A stretch of 64,000 nt of DNA from the NCBI GenBank assembly GCA_003194525.1, contig NBIV01000019.1, forward strand, positions 248,001 to 312,000. The letters are read 5' to 3'. Of the stretch, positions 3,816-64,000 are shown in pieces. The translations under genes were made by a program, and so were the position numbers. The notes under the pieces were generated by a model, which saw only the letters and a program-made list of their open reading frames with translations, did not search any database and was not told the origin of the DNA. The DNA comes from Gracilariopsis chorda. Taxonomy: Eukaryota > Rhodophyta > Florideophyceae > Gracilariales > Gracilariaceae. The stretch's first letter is position 1. Each line of letters begins with the position of its first letter.

Positions 3816-3818
3816 CTC

Positions 3819-20812: not shown

Positions 20813-20817
20813 AGAGA

Positions 20818-21588: not shown

Positions 21589-21591
21589 AAC

Positions 21592-32160: not shown

Positions 32161-32165
32161 AGAGG

Positions 32166-35976: not shown

Positions 35977-36903
35977 TGTAAAGGAAAACATCTTCTTTGG
36001 GAGTTGCTTTTACCCTTCTTAGAGGCATTACCGATGTACGGATTTGCCCAAATTGTGGGTTCAATTGTGACGATCTTCGGTGTGAATTTTCCCCTTCAGG
36101 TGAGTTCTAGATGGACTGGTACAGGACAAACGCGTGGCATGCGTGGGAATTGTTGGCTCCAATTTCGGAATTCATTTACCAGGTTAGCTTAATTTGGACC
36201 CTGACACTGGGTCCTCCACGTGTATGGCCCTGAGAAGGTGTGCACTATTTTCTTTAATTAGTTTACATGTTTTTAGTGAACCCTTCTTAGGTGGGAGTGA
36301 CCTCACGGTCGCAAGTTCACAGTAAACTAAACCAAGGCTGGTCTTCAAAACCATCACACTAGTCTGACAAACTAGAGCGGGCTCTGGTCGCAACTGCCCT
36401 CGTAGGTTCACGAATCCATCTGGAGAGTAACCACGTTTGGTTTCAGTACGACTAAACCCTCGGGACCGCTCACGACATCTGTGTAACTACACCGACCGTG
36501 GGTCTAACCTTACTCTGTTTATCTTGTGTATCCTGTTGCAGGACAGATCTCCGCCGCAGTATTGGGTTGTTTCGTTGGTTGTTGTTTTTATTTTACCCCT
36601 TGATTCTCGGGTCTGCTGCCGCTTTGAGCACGACCCTTGCCCCCTGGTTGTTTGGTTCTTTTCCCTCTTTGGGACACTACATTTGCTGAGTACGCTGTCT
36701 ACGTCCCCTCAATTGGATTCTTCTCTGATCTCGTTCCTCTCAGGATTCTTCGTATTCACCTCTACAGATAGAGCCAGTAACCACCGTTAGATTCACACTC
36801 AACACTCGTGTGGAGTAGAGGGCTCGTCTACTGAGTCTACCCTCCATAGGGAGCAAGGACTTGGACGCCTTGAGAGCTACAACCCGCACGGGTTTTGCTC
36901 CAA
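35977..36903 (+). repeat. First LTR of the array (boundary with the copia-type element)
   Basis: Starts TGTAAAGGAAAACATC, against TGTGGAGCAAAACATC in later units, and ends GCTCCA before AAAG and the primer-binding site. It is the only LTR of the array not preceded by a polypurine tract; before it lies copia-type RT sequence ending GTGTA. This identifies it as the real outer 5' end of the insertion. A GTGAGT at 36100 and a TTGCAG ending at 36541 could act as splice sites within the LTR. Confidence 0.75.
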
Positions 36904-36907
36904 AAGT

Positions 36908-36925
36908 GGTCTCCTGACTTAGACT
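36908..36925 (+). promoter_or_regulatory. Primer-binding site of array unit 1
   Basis: TGGTCTCCTGACTTAGAC starts four bases after the LTR. It repeats at 41952, 46998, 52044, 57091 and 62137. 15 of the first 17 bases match the chromovirus site at 21592, the two differences being C/T changes. Confidence 0.7.
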
Positions 36926-37016
36926 CCATATTTGGGATTGCAGTTTGGAACCATTCTTGGTCGCTTGAAGGATTCACCCGTTTTCGGGAGACGTTCTGGA
37001 AGCCGTATTCCGGATA

Positions 37017-37541
37017 GTGAAGGACTCCTTCGTGAGGATTGAAAGTCAGCGAACCTGCATTGTAGGTTTCCTGAAGAAGTTCTTTTTGTGTTCGTTATTC
37101 ACTCTTTGGAAGTCTTGTGATCAAATATTGTGTTGCCCCGAACAGGTTCGGTATTCTATCTGCAGTATGATGCCGCCGGTCCCTGGTCTTTGGAACGTCT
37201 TCACTCAATCCGTTGTGTCGGCGAAAATCGCCTACATAAGGTTGAGGAGGTCAGTACCCGAGAGGCGGGATGATAACAACCTGGATCCGAACCTTCGGAG
37301 AGCACCTTCAGCTGCATTGGGACCTGGAGAGGTTGACATGGTAGCGTAACAGGTTACGACGCCATTGGCAATTGACTGTGGTGATTGCGGTGCTGCTGAG
37401 TTCACTCATTTAGAGTGCATCATGGAGAAGGCCCTTGCGGCTCATGTGGATCTTCAAAGGAGTGTTGTTTCGAATGGGATTTATTCTAGTTCCCTTGAAC
37501 AGGGTGAACCACTTGCGGTGAGTCCCGGTCTGAAAAACTAG
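37017..37541 (+). pseudogene. Array unit 1: gag-position frame of unknown type
   Basis: The first long frame after the primer-binding site, where gag would be expected. 174 codons with one in-frame TAA at 37347-37349; no ATG at its start (GTG). It includes MMPPVPGLWNVFTQ and AIDCGDCGAAEFTHLEC. There is no zinc knuckle or capsid motif I recognise. Equivalents start at 42062, 47108, 52154, 57201 and 62247. Confidence 0.35.
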
Positions 37542-38624
37542 ATCTGGGATATCTGTCATTGGCACAGGGGTCATTCAAACTTGAAGCCTTGGTCTCACTC
37601 CCAAACCGGGATGCGTTTTTTTGGGTATATCCGTATACACATCGATTTCAAATCCTCCATGGAGTCGACTCGCAACCCTGCGTGTCGTCACCATTTCATG
37701 GGTTCTAACGTTGCTGTGCTTGAAACCCCGGTTCAGATTGTACTTTGGATTCATTGGCCTCTTTAGAGAGTCATCGTCTTGTTTGATTTGGTCCCCTGAA
37801 GTCACCGAAGGATCAGGATTCAACCGTTCTTCTGGTTTAGGATGCGTGGTGTACTTCTGTTTCGTGAGGTACTACTGTCACTGTTTAGATGTTTCGTTAT
37901 TGCTTGTTCACAGACCATTCAGGATCCTCTTTTTGAGGTACTGAGACCCGAAGGAGCGGGTAGTGACGTTGTTTACGTTCTTGTTTTGTTTTTGTTTGTT
38001 CACCGATCTGGTGTTATCGAGGTTTCGAATTTTACACAAGTTGGGTTGTGATGGTTTTCCCTCCGCCTTGTTGGGACTCGCGTCTCCGCTTGCATGGGTT
38101 TTCCCATCACGGGAGATTCTTTTCGTCTCATTTGAGAGCTCTCCAAACTTTGGATTATCCTCAAGGGATGAGTGGCCTTCAGAGACACATCTTAACCTCT
38201 GTTGGTGATTCTTCCGCACCTAGATCGAAGATTTACCGATATATCGGTCGCTACCTAAAAGAACTGGGCCTAATCCCCCAAGGGCTCAGTTGCATAACTT
38301 TTGCTGAGTTACTCCTCTATCAGAGGTGACACTGCGTTTTGGATTTCTCCCTGAGTAGTGAAAGGAGGGCAGTATTCCTTCAAAGGCTGTCTCGGCGTGA
38401 GCCGGTCAACCCACAGATGGGAGTTCTACTGTTCCTAAATTGAAGATGCATGACCCGACTGACTCGGTTACAAACGCTCGAATACCTTACCGTTTGGGTT
38501 GCGAAGTAATCAACAATTTGGTTGGAAACTCTGTCAGGAATTGAATGGATACCCTTATTAAGGGAGACGTTATCCATGGTCCAGAACGAGGGAATCTTCG
38601 CTTTGTCACGAGACGCTCGCCGCA

Positions 38625-39197
38625 GTGGTGCTTCAACAGGTCTTACCCTTTGTTGGGTCTATTTACAACTGCGATACAGTTACTCCGAATGCTACGGGTA
38701 CAGATTCGCAGTTACACCCACGTTGGGTTCGCAATTGTATCAGTCGTTCAGTCCGGGACACTTTCAGTAAGGTCCATGTTACCCCATTGAAGGAAGAAGC
38801 TCGAAGGATTTCAAGTCTCATTTTTAAGAAGGTACCTGTTTCTCAGGCCGTTCGCCACAGACGCCAGTTGGTTCTCTGCTACCGATATCCGGTTACTGTC
38901 TACCTAGAGGGCGCTGTGGTTGTTGACCCGTCGTCTGAAAATATCAATGATGACTGAGATTTCTTAAGGACCACCATCTGCCTTTATGATATGATGAACT
39001 CCAAAGGAGACACTTTGAAACTCTTCAAGAGACAATTTGGTGACGTTGAACCTCGTCGGGGACTGTTGAAGTTGAGCACCACTACTGTGTTGATATATGT
39101 CTCACGGAGCATGTCCATAGGCGTGGAATTTGAATTATCAGGTGCAATCAAGATTGAAAACAGCTTGCAACGGTGCACGGGAATTTTAATATCGTGA
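38625..39197 (+). pseudogene. Array unit 1: two adjacent coding-like frames, unknown
   Basis: 38625-38957 (EEARRISSLIFKKVPVSQ, YPVTVYLEGAVVVDP) and 38991-39197 (DTLKLFKRQFGDVEPRRG, VEFELSGAIKIEN) have protein-like composition, with alternating hydrophobic and charged residues. They match no family I know. In units 3 and 4 the end of the first is altered by small changes, so it is not conserved as a protein now. Confidence 0.3.
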
Positions 39198-39219
39198 TTT
39201 TTTTAGCCTGCGACGGCGC

Positions 39220-39558
39220 GTGCCCTGCGCGCAGGTGAGTCGCTACTGCTGTGCCCTCTTGAGATTTGTTGGCCACAGTTGTGACGTACGGCTGGTGAGG
39301 TGCACGCGTGCTATTACCCGACTAATTGGGACGTTGGAAATCACCGTGCACGGTCTAACCGCCACTCTGCCCGGTGAGTGCAATGCGCGAGCTTCTCTGT
39401 CGCCACGGATACGTTCACTGGTCTTGACTACCCTTCTGGGATTTGAAAATTTACCGCCTCGCAGTTACTGCTCCGTCATGGACGTTTTGAAACCCATTCC
39501 ACAATGGGGTAGAACAGATTTCAGAGGTACCCTTTTGTGGTCATTTGGGCACCGTTAA
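39220..39558 (+). pseudogene. Array unit 1: coding-like 112-codon frame, unknown
   Basis: Encodes RYCCALLRFVGHSCDVRLV, TRLIGTLEITVHGLTATLPG and VLKPIPQWGRTDFRGTLLW. It is open in all complete units (44265, 49310, 54356, 59403). Most differences between units change the amino acid (Leu/Pro, Leu/Met, Glu/Gly, Asp/Glu), which argues against present selection for the protein. No domain is recognised. Confidence 0.35.
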
Positions 39559-39975
39559 CGGTTTTTGAAATCTCGTATAGGCGAAGGAATTTGTCGAACC
39601 CTCAGGGTGCTCTCGTTTGCTCCGTTTCCGGAAAGCTCCTGTGAGGGTGTGCCAGCAACATGTACGGACCTCCGCGAGGACGACCGAACACTGGGTTAGT
39701 GAAATGAAGCCGCAGACGGTCATCAGACTGAGCACTCACCACATGGTGTGGTCAGACGCATTATGCGTGGCGTGCATACCCGAAGCTGGGGGTTGTTCTA
39801 CGACATCCGATGTCACCCATACACCTCGTGGAGGAGATTATGGATTCAATCGTTAACCTAACTAGGGACGCTACGTCGTGTTATAATTTACTTTTCTGGG
39901 TGTCTATACCAGTTTTGCGTGATTGTCGTTCATGATCATCCGATATCGGAGTGCTGGTGATATTGAACACAACGT

Positions 39976-40503
39976 ATGACTGTGCGCTGTGCGACTCAGA
40001 AGAGTTCAAATGCAAAACCCTGCAGGACGTTGATCTTCCGCCTGGGGTTACAGTTATCCATGGTGGATGAGGAACCTCGAAATGTGTACACCTGCTTTCA
40101 CAGGTTCGTGACGGTCCGCAGAGTGCGTCATGTCTACACTTCGGAAGGAGAGTCACTGCATCAAATCCGATGGTACGGATGCTGTCCTGAAGAGTATGTA
40201 GAAGTGCAAATAGGACCCCTACCTAGGTGCAAAGTGCTGTGTTGCTACCCAAGAATTTGGTTTTTTCGACCTCCAGAAAGAGTGATCCGAAAACGGAAAC
40301 GCGCCAGCAAGACCTCGACGCGAGGGATGATGGACTCAACTGAGTACTGCCGGAAGTATCTCAAAGGAGATTTTGGGAGGGACCCGATCTTCCTGATCTT
40401 GGTTTTCGCTGAGGATTCGGAAGATAGTGCATCACCGATTACCGGCATATTTCGAATTGAAGTTAGAAGGACTCAAGGAGTGGAGAGGAGAGAGAACCGT
40501 TAA
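39976..40503 (+). pseudogene. Array unit 1: longest frame of the repeat, 175 codons, unknown
   Basis: ATG at 39976. Encodes a basic, Cys-containing protein (VRHVYTSEGESL, YGCCPEEYVEVQIGP, RKRKRASK). It is present at full length in units 1-5 (45023, 50069, 55115, 60162). The five differences between units 1 and 2 that I can see are all amino-acid changes (Arg/His, His/Arg, Arg/Leu, Arg/Trp, Arg/Lys). The frame is thus kept only because copies are young. No family is recognised. Confidence 0.4.
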
Positions 40504-41155
40504 TAGGGAAGAAGAAGATGTACCACAGGCTATTCTGGATGGAAACTGTCATCAAGCGGTGTACTGCATGCGGCAGAGCTCAACCCCGCTGTCGGTGAAC
40601 AATTACGACCCGCTTACGGGAGAAAACCACCATCGTTGGTTCGGTCGGATGAATGTGGCCTGCAACGGCCCAGTTGATCGGTTGCCACCGCAGGGTTCGG
40701 GACTTGCACCTGAACTGGGCACTTGCATGGCCCACAATCCACAGCGAGAACGCAATACCAAAGATGGTTGCCGTACTCGAACCAACTGGTTTGGAGAGTC
40801 CGCCACATGGGATGTTCCTCACGCTAGCACCCGATTTTGGGAGAGTTATCTCTAAGGTGTTCAACCCACTGGTGGTACTCATGATTTCAGCCCCTCAATG
40901 AGTGAAAAGAAGATGATTGACCCAAACTGGGGATGTACTCATGCTAAGTGTCGGTACCGTTCGCTTTCGGTCGTCGTCGCCCGTCAAGTCTGCCGTGTTC
41001 CTCGAACTAAGGAGGGGGATATGTGGAGCAAAACATCTCCTTTGGGAGTTGCTTTTACCCTCCTTAGAGGCATTAACGATGTACGGATTTGCCCAAATTG
41101 TGGGTTCAATTGTGACAATCTTCGGTGCGAATTTTCCCCATCAGGTGAGTTCTAG
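40427..41155 (+). pseudogene. Array unit 1: frame with cysteine cluster running into the next LTR, unknown
   Basis: One frame with a stop at 40853-40855. The first part (GTG start) has NYDPLTGENHHRWFGRMN. The second, from ATG 40898, crosses the polypurine tract and ends 134 bases into the next LTR with ICPNCGFNCDNLRCEF, a four-cysteine cluster that could bind zinc. The ATG-started part is open in all complete units. If a GTGAGT at 41145 were spliced to the TTGCAG in the same LTR, the frame would continue into a short hydrophobic end. This is speculative. Confidence 0.3.
41009..41019 (+). promoter_or_regulatory. Polypurine tract before array LTR 2
   Basis: AAGGAGGGGGA followed by TA and then the TG of the LTR. 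The same sequence precedes LTRs 3-6. It matches the chromovirus tract at 31379-31391 over its full length. Confidence 0.7.
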
Positions 41156-44100
41156 ATGGACTGGTACAGGACAAACGCGTGGCATGCGTGGGAATTGTGG
41201 GCTCCAATTTCGGAATTCATTTACCAGGTTAGCTTAATTTGGACCCTGACACTGGGTCCTCCACGTGTATGGCCCTGAGAAGGTGTGCACTAATTTCTTT
41301 AATTAGTTTACATGTTTCTAGTGAACCCTTCTTAGGTGGGAGTGACCTCACGGTCGCAAGTTCACAGTAAACTAAACCAAGGTTGGTCTTCAAAACCATC
41401 ACTCTAGTCTGACAAACTAGAGCGGGCTCTGGTCGCAACTGCCCTCGTAGGTTCACGAATCCATCTGGAGAGTAACCACGTTTGGTTTCAGTACGACTAA
41501 ACCCTCGGGACCGCTCACGACATCTGTGTAGCTACACCGACCGTGGGTCTAACCTTACTCTGTTTATCTTGTGTATCCTGTTGCAGGACAGATCTCCGCC
41601 GCAGTATTGGGTTGTTTCGTTGGTTGTTGTTTTTATTTTACCCCTTGATTCTCGGGTCTGCTGCCGCTTTGAGCACGACCCTTGCCCCCTGGTTGTTTGG
41701 TTCTTTTCCCTCTTTGGGACACTACATTTGCTGAGTACGCTGTCTACGTCCCCTCAATTGGATTCTTCTCTGATCTCGTTCCTCTCAGGATTCTTCGTAT
41801 TCACCTCTGCAGATAGAGCCAGTAACCACCGTTAGATTCACACCCAACACTCGTGTGGAGTAGAGGGCTCGTCTACTGAGTCTACCCTCCATAGGGAGCA
41901 AGGACTTGGACGCCTTGAGAGCTACAACCCGCACGGGTTTTGCTCCAAAAGTGGTCTCCTGACTTAGACTCCATATTTGGGATTGCAGTTTGGAACCATT
42001 CTTGGTCGCTTGAAGGATTCACCCGTTTTCGGGAGACGTTCTGGAAGCCGTATTCCAGATAGTGAAGGACTCCTTCGTGAGGATTGAAAGTCAGCGAACC
42101 TGCATTGTAGGTTTCCTGAAGAAGTTCTTTTTGTGTTCGTTATTCACTCTTTGGAAGTCTTGTGATCAAATATTTTGTTGCCCCGAACAGGTTCGGTATT
42201 CTATCTGCAGTATGATGCCGCCGGTCCCTGGTCTTTGGAACGTCTTCACTCAATCCGTTGTGTCGGCGAAAATCGCCTACATAAGGTTGAGGAGGTCAGT
42301 ACCCGAGAGGCGGGATGATAACAACCTGGATCCGAACCTTCGGAGAGCACCTTCAGCTGCATTGGGACCTGGAGAGGTTGACAAGGTAGCGTAACAGGTT
42401 ACGACGCCATTGGCAATTGACTGTGGTGATTGCGGTGCTGCTGAGTTCACTCATTTAGAGTTCATCATGGAGAAGGCCCTTGCGGCTCATGTGGATCTTC
42501 AAAGGAGTGTTGTTTCGAATGGGATTTATTCTAGTTCCCTTGAACAGGGTGAACCACTTGCGGTGAGTCCCGGTCTGAAAAACTAGATCTGGGATATCTG
42601 TCATTGGCACAGGGGTCATTCAAACTTGAAGCCTTGGTCTCACTCCCAAACCGGGATGCGTTTTTTTGGGTATATCCGTATACACATCGATTTCAAATCC
42701 TCCATGGAGTCGACTCGCAACCCTGCGTGTCGTCACCATTTCATGGGTTCTAACGTTGCTGTGCTTGAAACCCCGGTTCAGATTGTACTTTGGATTCATT
42801 GGCCTCTTTAGAGAGTCATCGTCTTGTTTGATTTGGTCCCCTGAAGTCACCGAAGGATCAGGATTCAACCGTTCTTCCGGTTTTAGGATGCGTGGTTTAC
42901 TTCTGTTTCGTGAGGTACTACTGTCACTGTTTAGATGTTTCGTTATTGCTTGTTAACAGACCATTCAGGATCCTCTTTTTGAGGTACTGAGACCCGAAGA
43001 AGCGGGTAGTGACGTTGTTTACGTTCTTGTTTTGTTTTTGTTTGTTCACCGATCTGGTGTTATCGAGGTTTCGAATTTTACACAAGTTGGGTTGTGATGG
43101 TTTTCCCTCCGCCTTGTTGGGACTCGCGTCTCCGCTTGCATGGGTTTTCCCATCACGGGAGATTCTTTTCGTCTCATTTGAGAGCTCTCCAAACTTTGGA
43201 TTATCCTCAAGGATGAGTGGCCTTCAGAGACACATCTTTACCTCTGTTGGTGATTCTTCCGCACCTAGATCGAAGATTTACCGATATATCGGTCGCTACC
43301 TAAAAGAACTGGGCCTAATCCCCCAAGGGCTCAGTTGCATAACTTTTGCTGAGTTACTCCTCTATCAGAGGTGACACTGCGTTTTGGATTTCTCCCTGAG
43401 TAGTGAAAGGAGGGCAGTATTCCTTCAAAGGCTGTCTCGGCGTGAGCCGGTCAACCCACAGATGGGAGTTCTACTGTTCCTAAATTGAAGATGCATGACC
43501 CGACTTACTCGGTTACAAACGCTCGAATACCTTACCGTTTGGGTTGCGAAGTAATCAACAATTTGGTTGGAAACTCTGTCAGGAATTGAATGGATACCCT
43601 TATTAAGGGAGACGTTATCGATGGTCCAGAACGAGGGAATCTTCGCTTTGTCGCGAGACGCTCGCCGCAGTGGTGCTTCAACAGGTCTTACCCTTTGTTG
43701 GGTCTATTTACAACTGCGATACAGTTACTCCGAATGCTACGGGTACAGATTCGCAGTTACACCCACGTTGGGTTCGCAATTGTATCACTCGTTCAGTCCG
43801 GGACACTTTCAGTAAGGTCCATGTTACCCCATTGAAGGAAGAAGCTCGAAGGATTTCAAGTCTCATTTTTAAGAAGGTACCTGTTTCTCAGGCCGTTCGC
43901 CACAGACGCCAGTTGGTTCTCTGCTACCGATATCCGGTTACTGTCTACCTAGAGGGCGCTGTGGTTGTTGACCCGTCGTCTGAAAATATCAATGATGACT
44001 GAGATTTCTTAAGGACCACCATCTGCCTTTATGATATGATGAACTCCAAAGGAGACACTTTGAAACTCTTCAAGAGACAATTTGGTGACGTTGAACCTCG

Positions 44101-46068
44101 TCGGGGACTGTTGAAGTTGAGCACCACTACTGTGTTGATATATGTCTCACGGAGCATGTCCATAGGCGTGGAATTTGAATTATCAGGTGCAATCAAGATT
44201 GAAAACAGCTTGCAACGGTGCACGGGAATTTTAATATCGTGATTTTTTTAGCCTGCGACGGCGCGTGCCCTGCGCGCAGGTGAGTCGCTACTGCTGTGCC
44301 CTCTTGAGATTTGTTGGCCACAGTTGTGATGTACGGCTGGTGAGGTGCACGCGTGCTATTACCCGACCAATTGGGACGTTGGAAATCACCGTGCACGGTC
44401 TAACCGCCACTCTGCCCGGTGAGTGCAATGCGCGAGCTTCTCTGTCGCCACGGATACGTTCACTGGTCTTGACTACCCTTCTGGGATTTGAAAATTTACC
44501 GCCTCGCAGTTACTGCTCCGTCATGGACGTTTTGAAACCCATTCCACAATGGGGTAGAACAGATTTCAGAGGTACCCTTTTGTGGTCATTTGGGCACCGT
44601 TAACCGTTTTTGAAATCTCGTATAGGCGAAGGAATTTGTCGAACCCTCAGGGTGCTCTCGTTTGCTCCGTTTCCGGAAAGCTCCTGTGAGGGTGTGCCAG
44701 CAACATGTACGGACCTCCGCGAGGACGACCGAACACTGGTTAGTGAAATGAAGCCGCAGACGGTCATCAGACTGAGCACTCACCACATGGTTTGGTCAGA
44801 CGCATTATGCGTGGCGTGCATACCCGAAGCTGGGGGTTGTTCTACGACATCCGATGTCACGCATACACCTCGTGGAGGAGATTATGGATTCAATCGTTAA
44901 CCTAACTAGGGACGCTACGTCGTGTTATAATTTACTTTTCTGGGTGGCTATACCTCCAGTTTTGCGTGATTGTCGTTCATGATCATCCGATATCGGAGTG
45001 CTGGTGATAGTGAACACAACGTATGACTGTGCGCTGTGCGACTCAGAAGAGTTCAAATGCAAAACCCTGCAGGACGTTGATCTTCCACCTGGGGTTACAG
45101 TTATCCATGGTGGATGAGGAACCTCGAAATGTGTACACCTGCTTTCACAGGTTCGTGACGGTCCGCAGAGTGCGTCATGTCTACACTTCGGAAGGAGAGT
45201 CACTGCGTCAAATCCGATGGTACGGATGCTGTCCTGAAGAGTATGTAGAAGTGCAAATAGGACCCCTACCTAGGTGCAAAGTGCTGTGTTGCTACCCAAG
45301 AATTTGGTTTTTTCTACCTCCAGAAAGAGTGATCCGAAAACGGAAACGCGCCAGCAAGACCTCGACGCGAGGGATGATGGACTCAACTGAGTACTGCTGG
45401 AAGTATCTCAAAGGAGATTTTGGGAGGGACCCGATCTTCCTGATCTTGGTTTTCGCTGAGGATTCGGAAGATAGTGCATCACCGATTACCGGCATATTTC
45501 GAATTGAAGTTAGAAAGACTCAAGGAGTGGAGAGGAGAGAGAACCGTTAATAGGGAAGAAGAAGATGTACCACAGGCTATTCTGGATGGAAACTGTCATC
45601 AAGCGGTGTACTGCATGCGGCAGAGCTCAACCCCGCTGTCGGTGAACAATTACGACCCGCTTACGGGAGAAAACCACCATCGTTGGTTCGGTCGGATGAA
45701 TGTGGCCTGCAACGGCCCAGTTGATCGGTTGCCACCGCAGGGTTCGGGACTTGCACCTGAACTGGGCACTCACATGGCCCACAATCCACAGCGAGAACGC
45801 AACACCAAAGATGGTTGCCGTATTCGAACCAACTGGTTTGGAGAGTCCGCCACATGGGATGTTCCTCACGCTAGCACCCGATTTTGGGAGAGTTATCTCT
45901 AAGGTGTTCAACCCACTGGTGGTACTCATGATTTCAGCCCCTCAATGAGTGAAAAGAAGATGATTGACCCAAACTGGGGATTTACTCATGCTAAGTGTCG
46001 GTATCGTTCGCTTTCGGTCGTCGTCGCCCGTCAAGTCTGCCGTGTTCCTCGAACTAAGGAGGGGGATA
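41022..46068 (+). mobile_element. Array unit 2
   Basis: LTR 41022-41947, primer-binding site 41952, polypurine tract 46056-46066. Close to unit 1 in its LTR and first half (both keep CCTTGCCCCCTGG). It has its own one-base deletion near 43211 and a T-to-A change in CTTGTTAACAG near 42953. Confidence 0.9.
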
Positions 46069-49000: not shown

Positions 49001-51114
49001 GCGCTGTGGTTGTTGACCGGTCGTCTGGAAATATCAATGATGACTGAGATTTCTTAAGGACCACCATCTGGCTTTATGATATGATGAACTCCAAAGGAGA
49101 CACTGTTAAACTCTTCAAGAGACAATTTGGTGACGTTGAACCTCGTCGGGGACTGTTGAAGTTGAGCACCACTACTGTGTTGATATTCGTCTCACGGAGC
49201 ATGTCCATAGGCGTGGAATTGGAATTATCAGGTGCAATGAAGATTGAAAACAGCTTGCAACGGTGCACGGGAATTTTAATATCGTGATTTTTTTAGCCTG
49301 CCACGGCGCGTGCCCTGCGCGCAGGTGAGTCGCTACTGCTGTGCCCTCTTGAGATTTGTTGGCCACAGTTGTGACGTACGGCTGGTGAGGTGCACGCGTG
49401 CTATTACCCGACCAATTGGGACGTTGGAAATCACCGTGCACGGTCTAACCGCCACTCTGCCCGGTGAGTGCAATGCGCGAGCTTCTCTGTCGCCACGGAT
49501 ACGTTCAATGGTCTTGACTACCCTTCTGGGATTTGGAAATTTACCGCCTCGCAGTTACTGCTCCGTCATGGAAGTTTTGAAACCCATTCCACAATGGGGT
49601 AGAACAGATTTCAGAGGTACCCTTTTGTGGTCATTTGGGCACCGTTAACGGTTTTGGAAGTCTCGTATAGGCGAAGGAATTTGTCGAACCCTCAGGGTGC
49701 TCTCGTTTGCTCCGTTTCCGGAAAGCTCCTGTGAGGGTGTGCCAGCAACATGTACGGACCTCCGCGAGGACGACCGAACACTAGGTTAGTGATATGAAGC
49801 CGCAGACGGTCATCAGACTGAGCACTCACCACATGGTGTGGTCAGACGCATTATGCGTGGCGTGCATACCCGAAGCTGGGGGTTGTTCTACGACATCCGA
49901 TGTCACGCATACACCTCGTGGAGGAGATTATGGATTCAATCGTTAACCTAACTAGGGACGCTACGTCGTGTTATAATTTACTTTTCTGGGTGGCTATACC
50001 TCCAGTTTTGCGTGATTGTCGTTCATGATCATCCGATATCGGAGTGCTGGTGATAGTGAACACAACGTATGACTGTGCGCTGTGCGACTCAGAAGAGTTC
50101 AAATGCAAAACCCTGCAGGACGTTGATCTTCCACCTGGGGTTACAGTTATCCATGGTGGATGAGGAACCTCGAAATGTGTACACCTGCTTTCACAGGTTC
50201 GTGACGGTCCGCAGAGTGCGTCATGTCTACACTTCGGAAGGAGAGTCACTGCGTCAAATCCGATGGTACGGATGCTGTCCTGAAGAGTATGTAGAAGTGC
50301 AAATAGGACCCCTACCTAGGTGCAAAGTGCTGTGTTGCTACCCAAGAATTTGGTTTTTTCTACCTCCAGAAAGAGTGATCCGAAAACGGAAACGCGCCAG
50401 CAAGACCTCGACGCGAGGGATGATGGACTCAACTGAGTACTGCTGGAAGTATCTCAAAGGAGATTTTGGGAGGGACCCGATCTTCCTGATCTTGGTTTTC
50501 GCTGAGGATTCGGAAGATAGTGCATCACCGATTACCGGCATATTTCGAATTGAAGTTAGAAGGACTCAAGGAGTGGAGAGGAGAGAGAACCGTTAATAGG
50601 GAAGAAGAAGATGTACCACAGGCTATTCTGGATGGAAACTGTCATCAAGCGGTGTACTGCATGCGGCAGAGCTCAACCCCGCTGTCGGTGAACAATTACG
50701 ACCCGCTTACGGGAGAAAACCACCATCGTTGGTTCGGTCGGATGAATGTGGCCTGCAACGGCCCAGTTGATCGGTTGCCACCGCAGGGTTCGGGACTTGC
50801 ACCTGAACTGGGCACTCACATGGCCCACAATCCACAGCGAGAACGCAACACCAAAGATGGTTGCCGTATTCGAACCAACTGGTTTGGAGAGTCCGCCACA
50901 TGGGATGTTCCTCACGCTAGCACCCGATTTTGGGAGAGTTATCTCTAAGGTGTTCAACCCACTGGTGGTACTCATGATTTCAGCCCCTCAATGAGTGAAA
51001 AGAAGATGATTGACCCAAACTGGGGATGTACTCATGCTAAGTGTCGGTATCGTTCGCTTTCGGTCGTCGTCGCCCGTCAAGTCTGCCGTGTTCCTCGAAC
51101 TAAGGAGGGGGATA
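46069..51114 (+). mobile_element. Array unit 3
   Basis: LTR 46069-46993, primer-binding site 46998, polypurine tract 51102-51112. Shares TTGTCCCGAACAGTTTCGG (near 47222) and changes near 48978-49030 with unit 4 only. One-base deletion in GGCTCAATTTCGG near 46249. Confidence 0.9.
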
Positions 51115-54100
51115 TGTGGAGCAAAACATCTCCTTTGGGAGTTGCTTTTACCCTCCTTAGAGGCATTAACGATGTACGGATTTGCCCAAATTGTGGGTTC
51201 AATTGTGACAATCTTCGGTGTGAATTTTCCCCTTCAGGTGAGTTCTAGATGGACTGGTACAGGACAAACGCGTGGCATGCGTGGGAATTGTTGGCTCGAA
51301 GTTCGGAATTCATTTACCAGGATAGCTTAATTTGGACCCTGACACTGGGTCCTCCACGTGTATGGCCCTGAGAAGGTGTGCACTAATTTCTTATATTAGT
51401 TTACATGTTTCTAGTGAACCCTTCTTAGGTGGGAGTGACCTCACGGTCGCAAGTTCACAGTAAACTAAACCAAGGTTGGTCTTCAAAACCATCACTCTAG
51501 TCTGACAAACTAGAGCGGGCTCTGGTCGCAACTGCCCTCGTAGGTTCACGAATCCATCTGGAGAGTAACCACGTTTGGTTTCAGTACGACTAACCCCTCG
51601 GGACCGCTCACGACATCTGTGTAACTACACCGACCGTGGGTCTAACCTTACTCTGTTTATCTTGTGTATCCTGTTGCAGGACAGATCTCCGCCGCAGTAT
51701 TGGGTTGTTTCGTTGGTTGTTGTTTTTATTTTACCCCTTGATTCTCGGGTCTGCTGCCGCTTTGAGCACGACCCTTTCCCCCTGGTTGTTTGCTTCTTTT
51801 CCCTCTTTGGGACACTACATTTGCTGAGTACGCTGTCTACGTCCCTCAATTGGATTCTTCTCTGATCTCGTTCCTCTCAGGGTTCTTCGTATTCACCTCT
51901 GCAGATAGAGCCAGTAACCACCTTTAGATTCACACCCAACACTCGTGTGGAGTAGAGGGCTCGTCTACTAAGTCTACCCTCCATAGGGAGCAAGGACTTG
52001 GACGCCTTGAGAGCTACAACCCGCACGGGTTTTGCTCCAAAAGTGGTCTCCTGACTTAGAATCCATATTTGGGATTGCAGTTTGGAACCATTCTTGGTCG
52101 CTTGAAGGATTCACCCGTTTTCGGGAGACGTTCTGGAAGCCGTATTCCGGATAGTGAAGGACTCCTTCGTGAGGATTGAAAGTCAGCGAACCTGCATTGT
52201 AGGTTTCCTGAAGAAGTTCTTTTTGTGTTCGTTATTTACTCTTCGGAAGTCTTGTGATCAAATTTTTTGTTGTCCCGAACAGTTTCGGTATTCTATCTGC
52301 AGTATGATGCCGCAGGTCCCTGGTCTTTGGAACGTCTTCACTCAATCCGTTGTATCGGCGAAAATCGCCTACATAAGGTTGAGGAGGTCAGTACCCGAGA
52401 GGCGGGATGATAACAACCTGGATCCGAACCTTCGGAGAGCACCTTCAGCTGCATTGGGACCTGGAGAGGTTGACATGCTAGCGTAACAGGTTACGACGCC
52501 ATTGGCAATTGACTGTGGTGATTGCAGTGCTGCTGAGTTCACTCATTTAGAGTTCATCATGGAGAAGGCCCTTGCGGCTCATGTGGATCTTCAAAGGAGT
52601 GTTGTTTCGAATGGGATTTATTCTAGTTACCTTGAACAGGGTGAACCACTTGCGGTGAGTCCCGGTCTGAAAAACTAGATCTGGGATATCTGTCATTGGC
52701 ACAGGGGTCATTCAAACTTGAAGCCTTGGTCTCACTCCCAAACCGGGATGCGTTTTTTTGGATATATCCGTATACACATCGAATTCAAATCCTCCATGGA
52801 GTCGACTCGCAACCCTGCGTGTCGTCACCATTTCATGGGTTCTAACGTTGCTGTGCTTGAAACCCCGGTTCAGATTGTACTTTGGATTCATTGGCCTCTT
52901 TAGAGAGTCATCGTCTTGTTTGATTTGGTCCCCTGAAGTCACCGAAGGATCAGGATTCAACCGTTCTTCCGTTTTAGGATGCGTGGTTTACTTCTGTTTC
53001 GTGAGGTACTACTGTCACTGTTTAGATGTTTCGTTATTGCTTGTTCACAGACCATTCAGGATCCTCTTTTTGAGGTACTGAGACCCGAAGGAGCGGGTAG
53101 TGACGTTGTTTACGTTCTTGTTTTGTTTTTGTTTGTTCACCGATCTGGTGTTATCGAGGTTTCGAATTTTACACAAGTTGGGTTGTGATGGTTTTCCCTC
53201 CGCCTTGTTGGGACTCGCGTCTCCGCTTGCATGGGTTTTCCCATCACGGGAGATTCTTTTCGTCTCATTTGAGAGCTCTCCAAACTTTGGATTATCCTCA
53301 AGAGATGAGTGGCATTCAGGGACACATCTTTACCTCTGTTGGTGATTCTTCCGCACCTAGATCGAAGATTTACCGATATATCGGTCGCTACCTAAAAGAA
53401 CTGGGCCTAATCCCCCAAGGGCTCAGTTGCATAACTTTTGCTGAGTTACTCCTCTATCAGAGGTGACACTGCGTTTTGGATTTCTCCCTGAGTAGTGAAA
53501 GGAGGGCAGTATTCCTTCAAAGGCTGTCTCGGCGTGAGCCGGTCAACCCACAGATGGGAGTTCTACTGTTCCTAAATTGAAGATGCATGACCCGACTGAC
53601 TCGGTTACAAACGCTCGAATACCTTACCGTTTGGGTTGCGAAGTAATCAACAATTTGGTTGGAAACTCTGTCAGGAATTGAATGGATACCCTTATTAAGG
53701 GAGACGTTATCGATGGTCCAGAACGAGGGAATCTTCGCTTTGTCGCGAGACGCTCGCCGCAGTGGTGCTTCAACAGGTCTTACCCTTTGTTGGGTCTATT
53801 TACAACTGCGATACAGTTACTCCGAATGCTACGGGTACAGATTCGCAGTTACACCCACGTTGGGTTCGCAATTGTATCACTCGTTCAGTCTGGGACACTT
53901 TCAGTAAGGTCCATGTTACCCCATTGAAGGAAGAAGCTCGAAGGATTTCAAGTCTCAGTTTTAAGAAGGTACCTGTTTCTCAGGCCGTTCGCCACAGACG
54001 CCAGTTGGTTCTCTGCTACCGATTCCGGTTACTGTCAACCCAGAGGGCGCTGTGGTTGTTGACCGGTCGTCTGGAAATATCAATGATGACTGAGATTTCT

Positions 54101-56160
54101 TAAGGACCACCATCTGGCTTTATGATATGATGAACTCCAAAGGAGACACTGTTAAACTCTTCAAGAGACAATTTGGTGACGTTGAACCTCGTCGGGGACT
54201 GTTGAAGTTGAGCACCACTACTGTGTTGATATTCGTCTCACGGAGCATGTCCATAGGCGTGGAATTGGAATTATCAGGTGCAATCAAGATTGAAAACAGC
54301 TTGCAACGGTGCACGGGAATTTTAATATCGTGATTGTTTTTGCCTGCCACGGCGCGTGCCCTGCGCGCAGGTGAGTCGCTACTGCTGTGCCCTCTTGAGA
54401 TTTGTTGGCCACAGTTGTGACGTACGGCTGGTGAGGTGCACGCGTGCTATTACCCGACCAATTGGGACGTTGGAAATCACCGTGCATGCTCTAACCGCCA
54501 CTCTGCCCGGTGAGTGCAATGCGCGAGCTTCTCTGTCGCCACAGATACGTTCAATGGTCTTGAATACCCTTCTGGGATTTGAAAATTTACCGCCTCGCAG
54601 TTACTGCTCCGTCATGGAAGTTTTGAAACCCATTCCACAATGGGGTAGAACAGATTTCAGAGGTACCCTTTTGTGGTCATTTGGGCACCGTTAACGGTTT
54701 TGGAAGTCTCGTATAGGCGAAGGAATTTGTCAAACCCTCAGGGTGCTCTCGTTTGCTCCGTTTCCGGAAAGCTCCTGTGAGGGTGTGCCAGCAACATGTA
54801 CGGACCTCCGCGAGGACGACCGAACACTAGGTTAGTGATATGAAGCCGCAGACGGTCATCAGACTGAGCACTCACCACATGGTGTGGTCAGACGCATTAT
54901 GCGTGGCGTGCATACCCGAAGCTGGGGGTTGTTCTACGACATCCGATGTCACGCATACACCTCGTGGAGGAGATTATGGATTCAATCGTTAACCTAACTA
55001 GGGACGCTACGTCGTGTTATAATTTACTTTTCTGGGTGGCTATACCTCCAGTTTTGCGTGATTGTCGTTCATGATCATCCGATATCGGAGTGCTGGTGAT
55101 AGTGAACACAACGTATGACTGTGCGCTGTGCGACTCAGAAGAGTTCAAATGCAAAACCCTGCAGGACGTTGATCTTCCACCTGGGGTTACAGTTATCCAT
55201 GGTGGATGAGGAACCTCGAAATGTGTACACCTGCTTTCACAGGTTCGTGACTGTCCGCAGAGTGCGTCATGTCTACACTTCGGAAGGAGAGTCACTGCGT
55301 CAAATCCGATGGTACGGATGCTGTCCTGAAGAGTATGTAGAAGTGCAAATAGGACCCATACCTAGGTGCAAAGTGCTGTGTTGCTACCCAAGAATTTGGT
55401 TTTTTCTACCTCCAGAAAGAGTGATCCGAAAACGGAAACGCGCCAGCAAGACCTCGACGCGAGGGATGATGGACTCAACTGAGTACTGCTGGAAGTATCT
55501 CAAAGGAGATTTTGGGAGGGACCCGATCTTCCTGATCTTGGTTTTCGCTGAGGATTCGGAAGATAGTGCATCACCGATTACCGGCATATTTCGAATTGAA
55601 GTTAGAAGGACTCAAGGAGTGGAGAGGAGAGAGAACCGTTAATAGGGAAGAAGAAGATGTACCACAGGCTATTCTGGATGGAAACTGTCATCAAGCGGTG
55701 TACTGCATGCGGCAGAGCTCAACCCCGCTGTCGGTGAACAATTACGACCCGCTTACGGGAGAAAACCACCATCGTTGGTTCGGTCGGATGAATGTGGCCT
55801 GCAACGGCCCAGTTGATCGGTTGCCACCGCAGGGTTCGGGACTTGCACCTGAACTGGGCACTCACATGGCCCACAATCCACAGCGAGAACGCAACACCAA
55901 AGATGGTTGCCGTATTCGAACCAACTGGTTTGGAGAGTCCGCCACATGGGATGTTCCTCACGCTAGCACCCGATTTTGGGAGAGTTATCTCTAAGGTGTT
56001 CAACCCACTGGTGGTACTCATGATTTCAGCCCCTCAATGAGTGAAAAGAAGATGATTGACCCAAACTGGAGATGTACTCATGCTAAGTGTCGGTATCGTT
56101 CGCTTTCGGTCGTCGTCGCCCGTCAAGTCTGCCGTGTTCCTCGAACTAAGGAGGGGGATA
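51115..56160 (+). mobile_element. Array unit 4
   Basis: LTR 51115-52039, primer-binding site 52044, polypurine tract 56148-56158. Internal region closest to unit 3. Its LTR shares CTCGAAGTTCGG (near 51296) with unit 6 and not with units 3 or 5. Confidence 0.9.
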
Positions 56161-59100
56161 TGTGGAGCAAAACATCTCCTTTGGGAGTTGCTTTTACCCT
56201 CCTTAGAGGCATTAACGATGTACGGATTTGCCCAAATTGTGGGTTCAATTGTGACAATCTTCGGTGTGAATTTTCCCCTTCAGGTGAGTTCTAGATGGAC
56301 TGGTACAGGACAAACGCGTGGCATGCGTGGGAATTGTTGGCTCCAATTTCGGAATTCATTTACCAGGATAGCTTAATTTGGACCCTGACACTGGGTCCTC
56401 CACGTGTATGGCCCTGAGAAGGTGTGCACTAATTTCTTATATTAGTTTACATGTTTCTAGTGAACCCTTCTTAGGTGGGAGTGACCTCACGGTCGCAAGT
56501 TCACAGTAAACTAAACCAAGGTTGGTCTTCAAAACCATCACTCTAGTCTGACAAACTAGAGCGGGCTCTGGTCGCAACTGCCCTCGTAGGTTCACGAATC
56601 CATCTGGAGAGTAACCACGTTTGGTTTCAGTACGACTAACCCCTCGGGACCGCTCACGACATCTGTGTAACTACACTGACCGTGGGTCTAACCTTACTCT
56701 GTTTATCTTGTGTATCCTGTTGCAGGACAGATCTCCGCCGCAGTATTGGGTTGTTTCGTTGGTTGTTGTTTTTATTTTAATCCTTGATTCTCGGGTCTGC
56801 TGCCGCTTTGAGCACGACCCTTTCCCCCTGGTTGTTTGCTTCTTTTCCCTCTTTGGGACACTACATTTGCTGAGTACGCTGTCTACGTCCCCTCAATTGG
56901 ATTCTTCTCTGATCTCGTTCCTCTCAGGGTTCTTCGTATTCACCTCTGCAGATAGAGCCAGTAACCACCTTTAGATTCACACCCAACACTCGTGTGGAGT
57001 AGAGGGCTCGTCTACTAAGTCTACCCTCCATAGGGAGCAAGGACTTGGACGCCTTGAGAGCTACAACCCGCACGGGTTTTGCTCCAAAAGTGGTCTCCTG
57101 ACTTAGAATCCATATTTGGGATTGCAGTTTGGAACCATTCTTGGTCGCTTGAAGGATTCACCCGTTTTCGGGAGACGTTCTGGAAGCCGTATTCCGGATA
57201 GTGAAGGACTCCTTCGTGAGGATTGAAAGTCAGCGAACCTGCATTGTAGGTTTCCTGAAGAAGTTCTTTTTGTGTTCGTTATTCACTCTTTGGAAGTCTT
57301 GTGATCAAATATTTTGTTGCCCCGAACAGGTTCGGTATTCTATCTGCAGTATGATGCCGCCGGTCCCTGGTCTTTGGAACGTCTTCACTCAATCCGTTGT
57401 GTCGGCGAAAATCGCCTACATAAGGTTGAGGAGGTCAGTACCCGAGAGGCGGGATGATAACAACCTGGATCCGAACCTTCGGAGAGCACCTTCAGCTGCA
57501 TTGGGACCTGGAGAGGTTGACATGGTAGCGTAACAGGTTACGACGCCATTGGCAATTGACTGTGGTGATTGCGGTGCTGCTGAGTTCACTCATTTAGAGT
57601 TCATCATGGAGAAGGCCCTTGCGGCTCATGTGGATCTTCAAAGGAGTGTTGTTTCGAATGGGATTTATTCTAGTTCCCTTGAACAGGGTGAACCACTTGC
57701 GGTGAGTCCCGGTCTGAAAAACTAGATCTGGGATATCTGTCATTGGCACAGGGGTCATTCAAACTTGAAGCCTTGGTCTCACTCCCAATCCGGGATGCGT
57801 TTTTTTGGATATATCCGTATACACATCGAATTCAAATCCTCCATGGAGTCGACTCGCAACCCTGCGTGTCGTCACCATTTCATGGGTTCTAACGTTGCTT
57901 CGCTTGAAACCCCGGTTCAGATTGTACTTTGGATTCATTGGCCTCTTTAGAGAGTCATCATCTTGTTTGATTTGGTCCCCTAAAGTCACCAAAGGATCAG
58001 GATTCAACCGTTCTTCCGGTTTAGGATGCGTGGTTTACTTCTGTTTCGTGAGGTACTACTGTCACTGTTTAGATGTTTCGTTATTGCTTGTTCACAGACC
58101 ATTCAGGATCCTCTTTTTGAGGTACTGAGACCCGAAGGAGCGGGTAGTGACGTTGTTTACGTTCTTGTTTTGTTTTTGTTTGTTCACCGATCTGGTGTTA
58201 TCGAGGTTTCGAATTTTACACAAGTTGGGTTGTGATGGTTTTCCCTCCGCCTTGTTGGGACTCGCGTCTCCGCTTGCATGGGTTTTCCCATCACGGGAGA
58301 TTCTTTTCGTCTCATTTGAGAGCTCTCCAAACTTTGGATTATCCTCAAGGGATGAGTGGCCTTCAGAGACACATCTTTACCTCTGTTGGTGATTCTTCCG
58401 CACCTAGATCGAAGATTTACCGATATATCGGTCGCTACCTAAAAGAACTGGGCCTAATCCCCCAAGGGCTCAGTTGCATAACTTTTGCTGAGTTACTCCT
58501 CTATCAGAGGTGACACTGCGTTTTGGATTTCTCCCTGAGTAGTGAAAGGAGGGCAGTATTCCTTCAAAGGCTGTCTCGGCGTGAGCCGGTCAACCCACAG
58601 ATGGGAGTTCTACTGTTCCTAAATTGAAGATGCATGACCCGACTGACTCGGTTACAAACGCTCGAATACCTTACCGTTTGGGTTGCGAAGCAATCAACAA
58701 TTTGGTTGGAAACTCTGTCAGGAATTGAATGGATACCCTTATTAAGGGAGACGTTATCGATGGTCCAGAACGAGGGAATCTTCGCTTTGTCGCGAGACGC
58801 TCGCCGCAGTGGTGCTTCAACAGGTCTTACCCTTTGTTGGGTCTATTTACAACTGCGATACAGTTACTCCGAATGCTACGGGTACAGATTCGCAGTTACA
58901 CCCACGTTGGGTTCGCAATTGTATCACTCGTTCAGTCTGGGACACTTTCAGTAAGGTTCATGTTACCCCATTGAAGGAAGAAGCTCGAAGGATTTCAAGT
59001 CTCATTTTTAAGAAGGTACCTGTTTCTCAGGCCGTTCGCCACAGACGCCAGTTGGTTCTCTGCTACCGATTCCGGTTACTGTCTACCTAGAGGGCGCTGT

Positions 59101-61207
59101 GGTTGTTGACCCGTCGTCTGGAAATATCAATGATGACTGAGATTTGTTAAGGACCACCATCTGCCTTTATGATATGATGAACTCCAAAGGAGACACTGTG
59201 AAACTCTTCAAGAGACAATTTGGTGACGTTGAACCTCGTCGGGGACTGTTGAAGTTGAGCACCACTACTGTGTTAATATATGTCTCACGGAGCATGTCCA
59301 TAGGCGTGGAATTGGAATTATCAGGTGCAATCAAGATTGAAAACAGCTTGCAACGGTGCACGGGAATTTTAATATCGTGATTTTTTTAGCCTGCCACGGC
59401 GCGTGCCCTGCGCGCAGGTGAGTCGCTACTGCTGTGCCCTCTTGAGATTTGTTGGCCACAGTTGTGACGTACGGCTGGTGAGGTGCACGCGTGCTATTAC
59501 CCGACCAATTGGGACGTTGGAAATCACCGTGCACGGTCTAACCGCCACTCTGCCCGGTGAGTGCAATGCGCGAGCTTCTCTGTCGCCACGGATACGTTCA
59601 ATGGTCTTGACTACCCTTCTGGGATTTGGAAATTTACCGCCTCGCAGTTACTGCTCCGTCATGGAAGTTTTGAAACCCATTCCACAATGGGGTAGAACAG
59701 ATTTCAGAGGTACCCTTTTGTGGTCATTTGGGCACCGTTAACGGTTTTGGAAGTCTCGTATAGGCGAAGGAATTTGTCAAACCCTCAGGGTGCTCTCGTT
59801 TGCTCCGTTTCCGGAAAGCTCCTGTGAGGGTGTGCCAGCAACATGTACGGACCTCCGCGAGGACGACCGAACACTAGGTTAGTGATATGAAGCCGCAGAC
59901 GGTCATCAGACTGAGCACTCACCACATGGTGTGGTCAGACGCATTATGCGTGGCGTGCATACCCGAAGCTGGGGGTTGTTCTACGACATCCGATGTCACG
60001 CATACACCTCGTGGAGGAGATTATGGATTCAATCGTTAACCTAACTAGGGACGCTACGTCGTGTTATAATTTACTTTTCTGGGTGGCTATACCTCCAGTT
60101 TTGCGTGATTGTCGTTCATGATCATCCGATATCGGAGTGCTGGTGATAGTGAACACAACGTATGACTGTGCGCTGTGCGACTCAGAAGAGTTCAAATGCA
60201 AAACCCTGCAGGACGTTGATCTTCCACCTGGGGTTACAGTTATCCATGGTGGATGAGGAACCTCGAAATGTGTACACCTGCTTTCACAGGTTCGTGACGG
60301 TCCGCAGAGTGCGTCATGTCTACACTTCGGAAGGAGAGTCACTGCGTCAAATCCGATGGTACGGATGCTGTCCTGAAGAGTATGTAGAAGTGCAAATAGG
60401 ACCCCTACCTAGGTGCAAAGTGCTGTGTTGCTACCCAAGAATTTGGTTTTTTCTACCTCCAGAAAGAGTGATCCGAAAACGGAAACGCGCCAGCAAGACC
60501 TCGACGCGAGGGATGATGGACTCAACTGAGTACTGCTGGAAGTATCTCAAAGGAGATTTTGGGAGGGACCCGATCTTCCTGATCTTGGTTTTCGCTGAGG
60601 ATTCGGAAGATAGTGCATCACCGATTACCGGCATATTTCGAATTGAAGTTAGAAGGACTCAAGGAGTGGAGAGGAGAGAGAACCGTTAATAGGGAAGAAG
60701 AAGATGTACCACAGGCTATTCTGGATGGAAACTGTCATCAAGCGGTGTACTGCATGCGGCAGAGCTCAACCCCGCTGTCGGTGAACAATTACGACCCGCT
60801 TACGGGAGAAAACCACCATCGTTGGTTCGGTCGGATGAATGTGGCCTGCAACGGCCCAGTTGATCGGTTGCCACCGCAGGGTTCGGGACTTGCACCTGAA
60901 CTGGGCACTCACATGGCCCACAATCCACAGCGAGAACGCAACACCAAAGATGGTTGCCGTATTCGAACCAACTGGTTTGGAGAGTCCGCCACATGGGATG
61001 TTCCTCACGCTAGCACCCGATTTTGGGAGAGTTATCTCTAAGGTGTTCAACCCACTGGTGGTACTCATGATTTCAGCCCCTCAATGAGTGAAAAGAAGAT
61101 GATTGACCCAAACTGGGGATGTACTCATGCTAAGTGTCGGTATCGTTCGCTTTCGGTCGTCGTCGCCCGTCAAGTCTGCCGTGTTCCTCGAACTAAGGAG
61201 GGGGATA
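56161..61207 (+). mobile_element. Array unit 5
   Basis: LTR 56161-57086, primer-binding site 57091, polypurine tract 61195-61205. Shares GTCATCATCTTG and CCCCTAAAGTCACCAAAGG (near 57955-57995) with unit 6. A C-to-T-type change makes an internal stop of the other units a sense codon near 58691. Confidence 0.9.
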
Positions 61208-64000
61208 TGTGGAGCAAAACATCTCCTTTGGGAGTTGCTTTTACCCTCCTTAGAGGCATTAACGATGTACGGATTTGCCCAAATTGTGGGTTCAATTGTG
61301 ACAATCTTCGGTGTGAATTTTCCCCTTCAGGTGAGTTCTAGATGGACTGGTACAGGACAAACGCGTGGCATGCGTGGGAATTGTTGGCTCGAAGTTCGGA
61401 ATTCATTTACCAGGATAGCTTAATTTGGACCCTGACACTGGGTCCTCCACGTGTATGGCCCTGAGAAGGTGTGCACTAATTTCTTATATTAGTTTACATG
61501 TTTCTAGTGAACCCTTCTTAGGTGGGAGTGACCTCACGGTCGCAAGTTCACAGTAAACTAAACCAAGGTTGGTCTTCAAAACCATCACTCTAGTCTGACA
61601 AACTAGAGCGGGCTCTGGTCGCAACTGCCCTCGTAGGTTCACGAATCCATCTGGAGAGTAACCACGTTTGGTTTCAGTACGACTAACCCCTCGGGACCGC
61701 TCACGACATCTGTGTAACTACACTGACCGTGGGTCTAACCTTACTCTGTTTATCTTGTGTATCCTGTTGCAGGACAGATCTCCGCCGCAGTATTGGGTTG
61801 TTTCGTTGGTTGTTGTTTTTATTTTACCCTTGATTCTCGGGTCTGCTGCCGCTTTGAGCACGACCCTTTCCCCCTGGTTGTTTGCTTCTTTTCCCTCTTT
61901 GGGACACTACATTTGCTGAGTACGCTGTCTACGTCCCCTCAATTGGATTCTTCTCTGATCCCGTTCCTCTCAGGGTTCTTCGTATTCACCTCTGCAGATA
62001 GAGCCAGTAACCACCTTTAGATTCACACCCAACACTCGTGTGGAGTAGAGGGCTCGTCTACTAAGTCTACCCTCCATAGGGAGCAAGGACTTGGACGCCT
62101 TGAGAGCTACAACCCGCACGGGTTTTGCTCCTAAAGTGGTCTCCTGACTTAGAATCCATATTTGGGATTGCAGTTTGGAACCATTCTTGGTCGCTTGAAG
62201 GATTCACCCGTTTTCGGGAGACGTTCTGGAAGCCGTATTCCGGATAGTGAAGGACTCCTTCGTGAGGATTGAAAGTCAGCGAACCTGCATTGTAGGTTTC
62301 CTGAAGAAGTTCTTTTTGTGTTCGTTATTCACTCTTTGGAAGTCTTGTGATCAAATATTTTGTTGCCCCGAACAGGTTCGGTATTCTATCTGCAGTATGA
62401 TGCCGCAGGTCCCTGGTCTTTGGAACGTCTTCACTCAATCCGTTGTGTCGGCGAAAATCGCCTACATAAGGTTGAGGAGGTCAGTACCCGAGAGGCGGGA
62501 TGATAACAACCTGGATCCGAACCTTCGGAGAGCACCTTCAGCTGCATTGGGACCTGGAGAGGTTGACATGGTAGCCTAACAGGTTACGACGCCATTGGCA
62601 ATTGACTGTGGTGATTGCGGTGCTGCTGAGTTCACTCATTTAGAGTTCATCATGGAGAAGGCCCTTGCGGCTCATGTGGATCTTCAAAGGAGTGTTGTTT
62701 CGAATGGGATTTATTCTAGTTCCCTTGAACAGGGTGAACCACTTGCGGTGAGTCCCGGTCTGAAAAACTAGATCTGGGATATCTGTCATTGGCACAGGGG
62801 TCATTCAAACTTGAAGCCTTGGTCTCACTCCCAATCCGGGATGCGTTTTTTTGGATATATCCGTATACACATCGAATTCAAATCCTCCATGGAGTCGACT
62901 CGCAACCCTGAGTGTCGTCACCATTTCATGGGTTCTAACGTTGCTTCGCTTGAAACCCCGGTTCAGATTGTACTTTGGATTCATTGGCCTCTTTAGAGAG
63001 TCATCATCTTGTTTGATTTGGTCCCCTAAAGTCACCAAAGGATCAGGATTCAACCGTTCTTCCGGTTTAGGATGCGTGGTTTACTTCTGTTTCGTGAGGT
63101 ACTACTGTCACTGTTTAGATGTTTCGTTATTGCTTGTTCACAGACCATTCAGGATCCTCTTTTTGAGGTACTGAGACCCGAAGGAGCGGGTAGTGACGTT
63201 GTTTACGTTCTTGTTTTGTTTTTGTTTGTTCACCGATCTGGTGTTATCGAGGTTTCGAATTTTACACAAGTTGGGTTGTGATGGTTTTCCCTCCGCCTTG
63301 TTGGGACTCGCGTCTCCGCTTGCATGGGTTTTCCCATCACGGGAGATTCTTTTCGTCTCATTTGAGAGCTCTCCAAACTTTGGATTATCCTCAAGGGATG
63401 AGTGGCCTTCAGAGACACATCTTTACCTCTGTTGGTGATTCTTCCGCACCTAGATCGAAGATTTACCGATATATCGGTCGCTACCTAAAAGAACTGGGCC
63501 TAATCCCTCAAGGGCTCAGTTGCATAACTTTTGCTGAGTTACTCCTCTATCAGAGGTGACACTGCGTTTTGGATTTCTCCCTGAGTAGTGAAAGGAGGGC
63601 AGTATTCCTTCAAAGGCTGTCTCGGCGTGAGCCGGTCAACCCACAGATGGGAGTTCTACTGTTCCTAAATTGAAGATGCATGACCCGACTGACTCGGTTA
63701 CAAACGCTCGAATACCTTACCGTTTGGGTTGCGAAGTAATCAACAATTTGGTTGGAAACTCTGTCAGGAATTAAATGGATACCCTTATTAAGGGAGACGT
63801 TATCGATGGTCCAGAACGAGGGAATATTCGCTTTGTCGCGAGACGCTCGCCGCAGTGGTGCTTCAACAGGTCTTACCCTTTGTTGGGTCTATTTACAACT
63901 GCGATACAGTTACTCCGAATGCTACGGGTACAGATTCGCAGTTACACCCACGTTGGGTTCGCAATTGTATCACTCGTTCAGTCTGGGACACTTTCAGTAA
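61208..64000 (+). mobile_element. Array unit 6, cut by the window edge
   Basis: LTR 61208-62132, ending CCT where the others have CCA; primer-binding site 62137. The last base of the window lies about 2.8 kb into the unit, so the right end of the array is not seen. Confidence 0.88.

Follow-up and report, generated by a model that had tools for sequence, protein, structure and literature searches.

A shared-LTR tandem array of a noncoding retroelement in Gracilariopsis chorda and its probable origin by unequal recombination at a single insertion

Introduction

How does a long terminal repeat (LTR) element come to be repeated head to tail, with a single LTR common to each pair of adjacent internal regions? 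The question is raised by a locus of Gracilariopsis chorda in the window analyzed here, a stretch of 64,000 bases (C19:248001-312000) from an assembly of 91.3 Mb and 1081 contigs, in which such an array begins at position 35977. Shared-LTR tandems have been published for rice and other plants in a 2025 paper whose accessible text also gives background on terminal-repeat retrotransposons in miniature (TRIMs), kangaroo centromeres, and yeast, and states that the origin of these structures is open (PMC11899658). The shared-LTR anatomy and the pattern of divergence among the units at the present locus are directly observed, and from them we consider it likely that one insertion was followed by stepwise unequal crossing-over between LTRs, which built the array.

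Results

Organization of the array

A reading of the window made from sequence alone had proposed an array of at least 28 kb with a period of about 5046 bp, kept within two bases over six copies. Its coordinates were right, and the contig additionally showed the right end at position 66811, 2.8 kb beyond the window, so that the array comprises six full units and a truncated seventh LTR (Table 1). The spacings between successive unit starts were 5045, 5047, 5046, 5046, 5047, and 5046 bp. A probe of 5046 bases (46000-51045) gave six consecutive matches and a partial seventh between 35975 and 66811, with 96.5-100% identity; five of the six were full-length and one lacked the first 67 bases. Self-comparison of 20-mers yielded 10,060 identical pairs at the single offset of 5046, whereas the only repeats in bases 1-35976 were a 33-base minisatellite and two LTRs at an offset of 10.57 kb. 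The periodicity is therefore not due to chance.

The junctions were equally regular. The polypurine tract TAAGGAGGGGGATA immediately preceded all six later LTRs, and the primer-site start TGGTCTCC followed all six complete LTRs, with TGGTCTCCTGACTTAG... beginning two bases beyond each of them, in the order that had been described from the sequence. Seven LTRs, one of them truncated, were counted for six internal regions, which bears out the earlier statement that only one LTR lies between neighboring internals. At the inner junctions, the tract, the LTR, and the primer site are continuous, and target duplications flanking each unit, for which we checked, have no space there.

It is very improbable that the array is an artefact in which the assembler expanded one element or stitched several dispersed ones together. 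The array was seen only in the assembly, with its 1081 contigs, and the precise number of units may yet prove incorrect; against an artefact, the units differ mutually at 18-67 internal sites, and no N was present in the 124 kb examined (the window with 10 kb to its left and 50 kb to its right). Moreover, matches to an internal probe outside the array reached at most 88% identity among the matches listed, so that dispersed copies were not stitched in.

Table 1. Components of the array and its left flank (window numbering).
Feature	Position	Strand	Remarks
Left flank of LTR 1, GTGTA	35972..35976	+	candidate for the left copy of the target duplication, unpaired because LTR 7 is truncated
LTR 1, outer 5' LTR	35977..36904	+	length from comparison with dispersed LTRs
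Internal 1	36905..41021	+	no recognizable coding; primer site from 36907; polypurine tract ends before 41022
LTR 2	41022..41949	+	common to internals 1 and 2
Internal 2	41950..46068	+	primer site from 41952
LTR 3	46069..46995	+	shared
Internal 3	46996..51114	+	primer site from 46998
LTR 4	51115..52041	+	shared
Internal 4	52042..56160	+	primer site from 52044; no match in six-frame Pfam search
LTR 5	56161..57088	+	shared
Internal 5	57089..61207	+	primer site from 57091
LTR 6	61208..62134	+	shared
Internal 6	62135..64000, continuing to 66253 past the window	+	primer site from 62137
LTR 7	66254..66811, outside the window	+	truncated

Definition of the LTR

The length of the LTR was set by dispersed relatives. 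The first 561 bases of the LTR were used as a probe, and the best 40 of 125 genome matches were scored, 33 of which lay outside the array. Flanks were examined for 23 of these 33, and 15 of the 23 were of the solo type, with no adjoining internal region; LTR recombination is thus common in this element's family. Thirteen of the 15 solo-type loci were measured (in the other two the right end was not readable). These relatives are of the TGTGGAGC...GCTCCACA type; eleven were 926-933 bp long, and two were longer through insertions (1460 and 1606 bp), giving an LTR of about 928 bp. An LTR of about 560 bp, corresponding to the overlap of the array's two ends, was rejected on this basis. LTR 7, which breaks off after 558 bases, is therefore truncated. 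We also considered that an insertion inside LTR 7 had displaced the missing end downstream, but the next 19 kb contained only weak matches, the best being 70% over about 110 bases. Among the best 40 of 73 candidates genome-wide, the sole C19 match outside the array (173864-174230, 89%) lay beside another LTR copy; the missing part was found neither there nor in the 19 kb.

The LTR had been described as of the TG...CA type. The TG start stands, but the array LTRs terminate in GCTCCAAA (GCTCCTAA in unit 6), their last two bases being AA; a CACA terminus was present in 8 of the 13 dispersed relatives tested. Judged from these relatives, the element has the direct LTRs of a retrotransposon, with short inverted TG and CA ends. 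Target duplications at these 13 loci matched at five of five bases in five cases, at four in four, and at three in four; as the scoring took the best of eight offsets, only the five-base cases are convincing.

Classification of the element

All six primer sites would pair, at 20-21 of 23 positions, with the CCA-extended 3' end of a tRNA-like gene (L054:46-144), which contains a short intron and has a D loop of unusual length. The search pattern consisted of the primer site itself and a T-loop motif, and it gave one match, with none in the reversed control. ARAGORN in intron mode reported tRNA-Gln, while the anticodon read by eye was GTA (tRNA-Tyr); ARAGORN without introns reported nothing, nor did Rfam at E 0.01.

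A Pfam search of all six frames of unit 4 gave no match at E values up to 1, and the same was true of 4383 bases covering most of a dispersed relative on C7. The same method applied to the element left of the array (20801-26500) was run on two readings: one contained RT_RNaseH (1.3e-32), and the longer one, in another frame, had no Pfam match. A hidden coding element was rejected on the searches of unit 4 and of the C7 relative. An array of ribosomal DNA, RNA genes, or tRNA genes was rejected as well, the window containing no Rfam match at the gathering threshold and no tRNA detected by ARAGORN. Given that no Pfam family was found in unit 4 or in the C7 relative, the array element is best described as a putative non-autonomous LTR element resembling the large retrotransposon derivatives (LARDs), with LTRs of about 928 bp and an internal region of about 4.1 kb.

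Divergence among units and LTRs

Between any two internal regions, 18-67 of about 4115 bases were substituted (0.4-1.6%). The closest were neighbors, with 31 of 4114 sites differing between units 1 and 2, 23 of 4118 between 3 and 4, and 18 of 4118 between 5 and 6; distances between these pairs were 31-67. In a FastTree analysis of the whole unit, the grouping of 1 with 2 had a support of 1.000, that of 3 with 4 had 0.998, and the split of 5 and 6 from the rest had 0.977. Mutation resembling repeat-induced point mutation was considered and rejected: minority C>T and G>A changes made up 32 of 87 singletons, of which 10 of 32 stood in a CpA or TpG context.

The LTRs were compared over the 558 bases present in LTR 7. 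Inner LTRs differed from each other by 1-11 substitutions, from LTR 1 by 15-18, and from LTR 7 by 16-20, and the two outer LTRs differed from each other at 25 sites (4.5%). Both LTRs of an LTR element are identical at insertion. With the outer LTRs more diverged than the inner ones, the insertion looks older than the amplification, or than a homogenization of the inner units. The description of the array as young is thus correct only in part, in view of the 0.4-1.6% between internal regions and the 4.5% between the outer LTRs.

Hybrid structure of the inner LTRs

In bases 1-110, the inner LTRs showed 1-2 differences from LTR 7 and 7-8 from LTR 1; in the following 448 or so bases, they showed 15-18 from LTR 7 and 7-11 from LTR 1. 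Of 27 informative sites, the first six favored LTR 7; among the 21 that follow, 16 favored LTR 1, and in a permutation test the best one-sided split was equalled in 7 of 2000 replicates. Two derived LTR alleles were common to units 1-6 and absent from LTR 7. An inner LTR that resembles the 3' LTR on its left and the 5' LTR on its right is expected from an exchange between a 3' and a 5' LTR, and the pattern is supporting, though not decisive, evidence for a putative recombination between the 5' and 3' LTRs of a single insertion.

These same observations bear on whether the units were made outside the chromosome. A circle formed by LTR-LTR recombination (one LTR plus internal, perhaps multiplied by rolling-circle replication), or the element's own complementary DNA (cDNA), could have recombined into the resident element. 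The LTR of such a circle would be hybrid in the same way as one left by a crossover; single-LTR circles arising from LTR recombination are discussed, in the accessible text, for Magnaporthe oryzae (PMC9694575), and integrase-independent entry into resident elements is cited for yeast in the rice paper (PMC11899658). We regard this route as unlikely, since a multimeric circle would deliver six units of equal age, whereas the neighbor pairs differ in divergence, and cDNA from dispersed copies would differ by 12% or more (where the 2001-base internal probe matched, identity was 84-88% among the matches listed). Stepwise entry of single circles derived from this locus would have the same outcome as unequal exchange and is indistinguishable from it.

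Insertion of a whole multimer produced during reverse transcription, followed by conversion that homogenized the inner units, appears quite improbable. Such a multimer would start with identical LTRs, yet the outer LTRs are more diverged and the inner ones hybrid-looking, and conversion would have to explain both. Multimeric Ty1 cDNA arrays do arise in rrm3 yeast, as the accessible part of one report describes (PMC7073672), and the rice authors, in the text available, keep the multimer route open (PMC11899658).

Proposed origin of the array

The earlier suggestion of unequal LTR recombination is supported by one LTR per internal region, continuous junctions, older outer LTRs, and hybrid-looking inner LTRs. 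We propose that one non-autonomous LTR element inserted once at this locus, after which its two LTRs would have diverged. The LTR-internal unit would then have been duplicated when the 3' LTR of one chromatid crossed over unequally with the 5' LTR of another, and further unequal exchanges between adjacent units, or equivalent replication slippage, could have raised the number to six, each new copy lying next to the one it was made from. At some stage, the last LTR would have lost its 3' end. Mobility of the element was probably provided by a Gypsy-type element with tRNA priming, through its proteins; the left neighbor is an example of such an element, while growth of the array would require host recombination only, with no transposition.

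Several points weigh against this origin. The right target duplication is absent from view because LTR 7 is truncated, and the number of copies is that of the assembly. The sister pairs are not recovered from the last third of the unit (columns 3700-5049). Of 1176 informative site pairs, 157 conflict, and units 3 and 5 show no more differences (31) than units 1 and 2; together these indicate that conversion (exchange between units) or homoplasy (repeated mutation) has occurred. The hybrid pattern was seen first and tested afterwards, on 27 sites. At two of these, LTR 7 has a gap, in one case at its broken end, and at another two the inner LTRs are not uniform. The left-hand signal comes from changes found in LTR 1 alone, most of them clustered in the first 41 bases, and no derived allele common to LTR 7 and all inner LTRs was found in this left part.

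Neighboring elements and other features of the window

The left neighbor (20814-32173) is a decayed Gypsy-type element with LTRs at 20814-21602 and 31388-32173 that are 87% identical, and an open frame in it matches RVT_1. Its primer-site region, TGGCCTCCTGACCTAG, and the sequence AAGGAGGGGGA upstream of its 3' LTR both resemble those of the array. To the right of the array, at about 71145-82325 (L001-L002), lies a pair of LTRs 10.4 kb apart and 95.6% identical, with a primer site, TGGTCTCCCGACCTAGAATCG, close to the array's. These neighbors may belong to the lineage that mobilized the noncoding element; judged from sequence, the similar primer sites of both and the polypurine tract of the left one are suggestive only as a sign of an autonomous partner.

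Elsewhere in the window, the stretch 3-3002 holds a PIF1-like helicase frame and, before it, a frame whose N-terminal part weakly matches Helitrons, under the Pfam cut-off; the two are possibly a Helitron. The gene content includes a GPR1/FUN34/YaaH family protein, and two short minisatellites, at 16998-17105 and 4760-4904, have repeat units of 33 and 54 bases, respectively.

Discussion

The array is like the tandem LTR structures of rice and other plants in its alternating internal regions, shared single LTRs, and one insertion; rice TLI1, as given in the accessible text, consists of two units flanked by a target duplication, whereas here there are six units and a truncated right end (PMC11899658). 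Cassandra TRIM arrays are likewise non-autonomous, lack protein genes, and repeat an LTR with its internal region, in many units and in some cases with truncated end units, as here. Cassandra is, however, a miniature element whose LTRs contain 5S RNA sequence, and its units are reported by the authors to show no differences, while the present unit is 5 kb long and its copies have diverged (PMC7215508). With LARDs, such as those of Laccaria bicolor, the element shares LTR ends and a large internal region devoid of protein genes, but the accessible text on LARDs mentions no tandem array (PMC3411680). The multimeric Ty1 arrays of yeast are also LTR-element multimers, described in the text available as cDNA arrays in rrm3 mutants (PMC7073672), whereas the pattern here fits chromosomal recombination. 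A narrow literature search, with most subscription journals outside it, brought up no LARD-like element described from a fungus as forming a shared-LTR array. The sequence-only reading had further called the array a macrosatellite, which is too strong a term for six units at one locus, with no second array of the element among the genome matches listed.

A shared-LTR tandem is therefore an already known kind of structure, and the array is a further example, in which diverged units make the history partly readable. That the locus is a natural record of the birth of a satellite from a noncoding retroelement is a tentative and rather doubtful idea; if true, the hybrid inner LTRs would mark a founding crossover near LTR base 100, the neighbor pairs would mark later one-unit steps, and the full order of events would be readable from the locus. 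The divergence pattern bears on the choice between recombination and multimer that the accessible text of the rice paper leaves open (PMC11899658). Units that can be ordered, together with a greater divergence of the outer than of the inner LTRs, favor recombination at a resident insertion, and this pattern can be searched for elsewhere.

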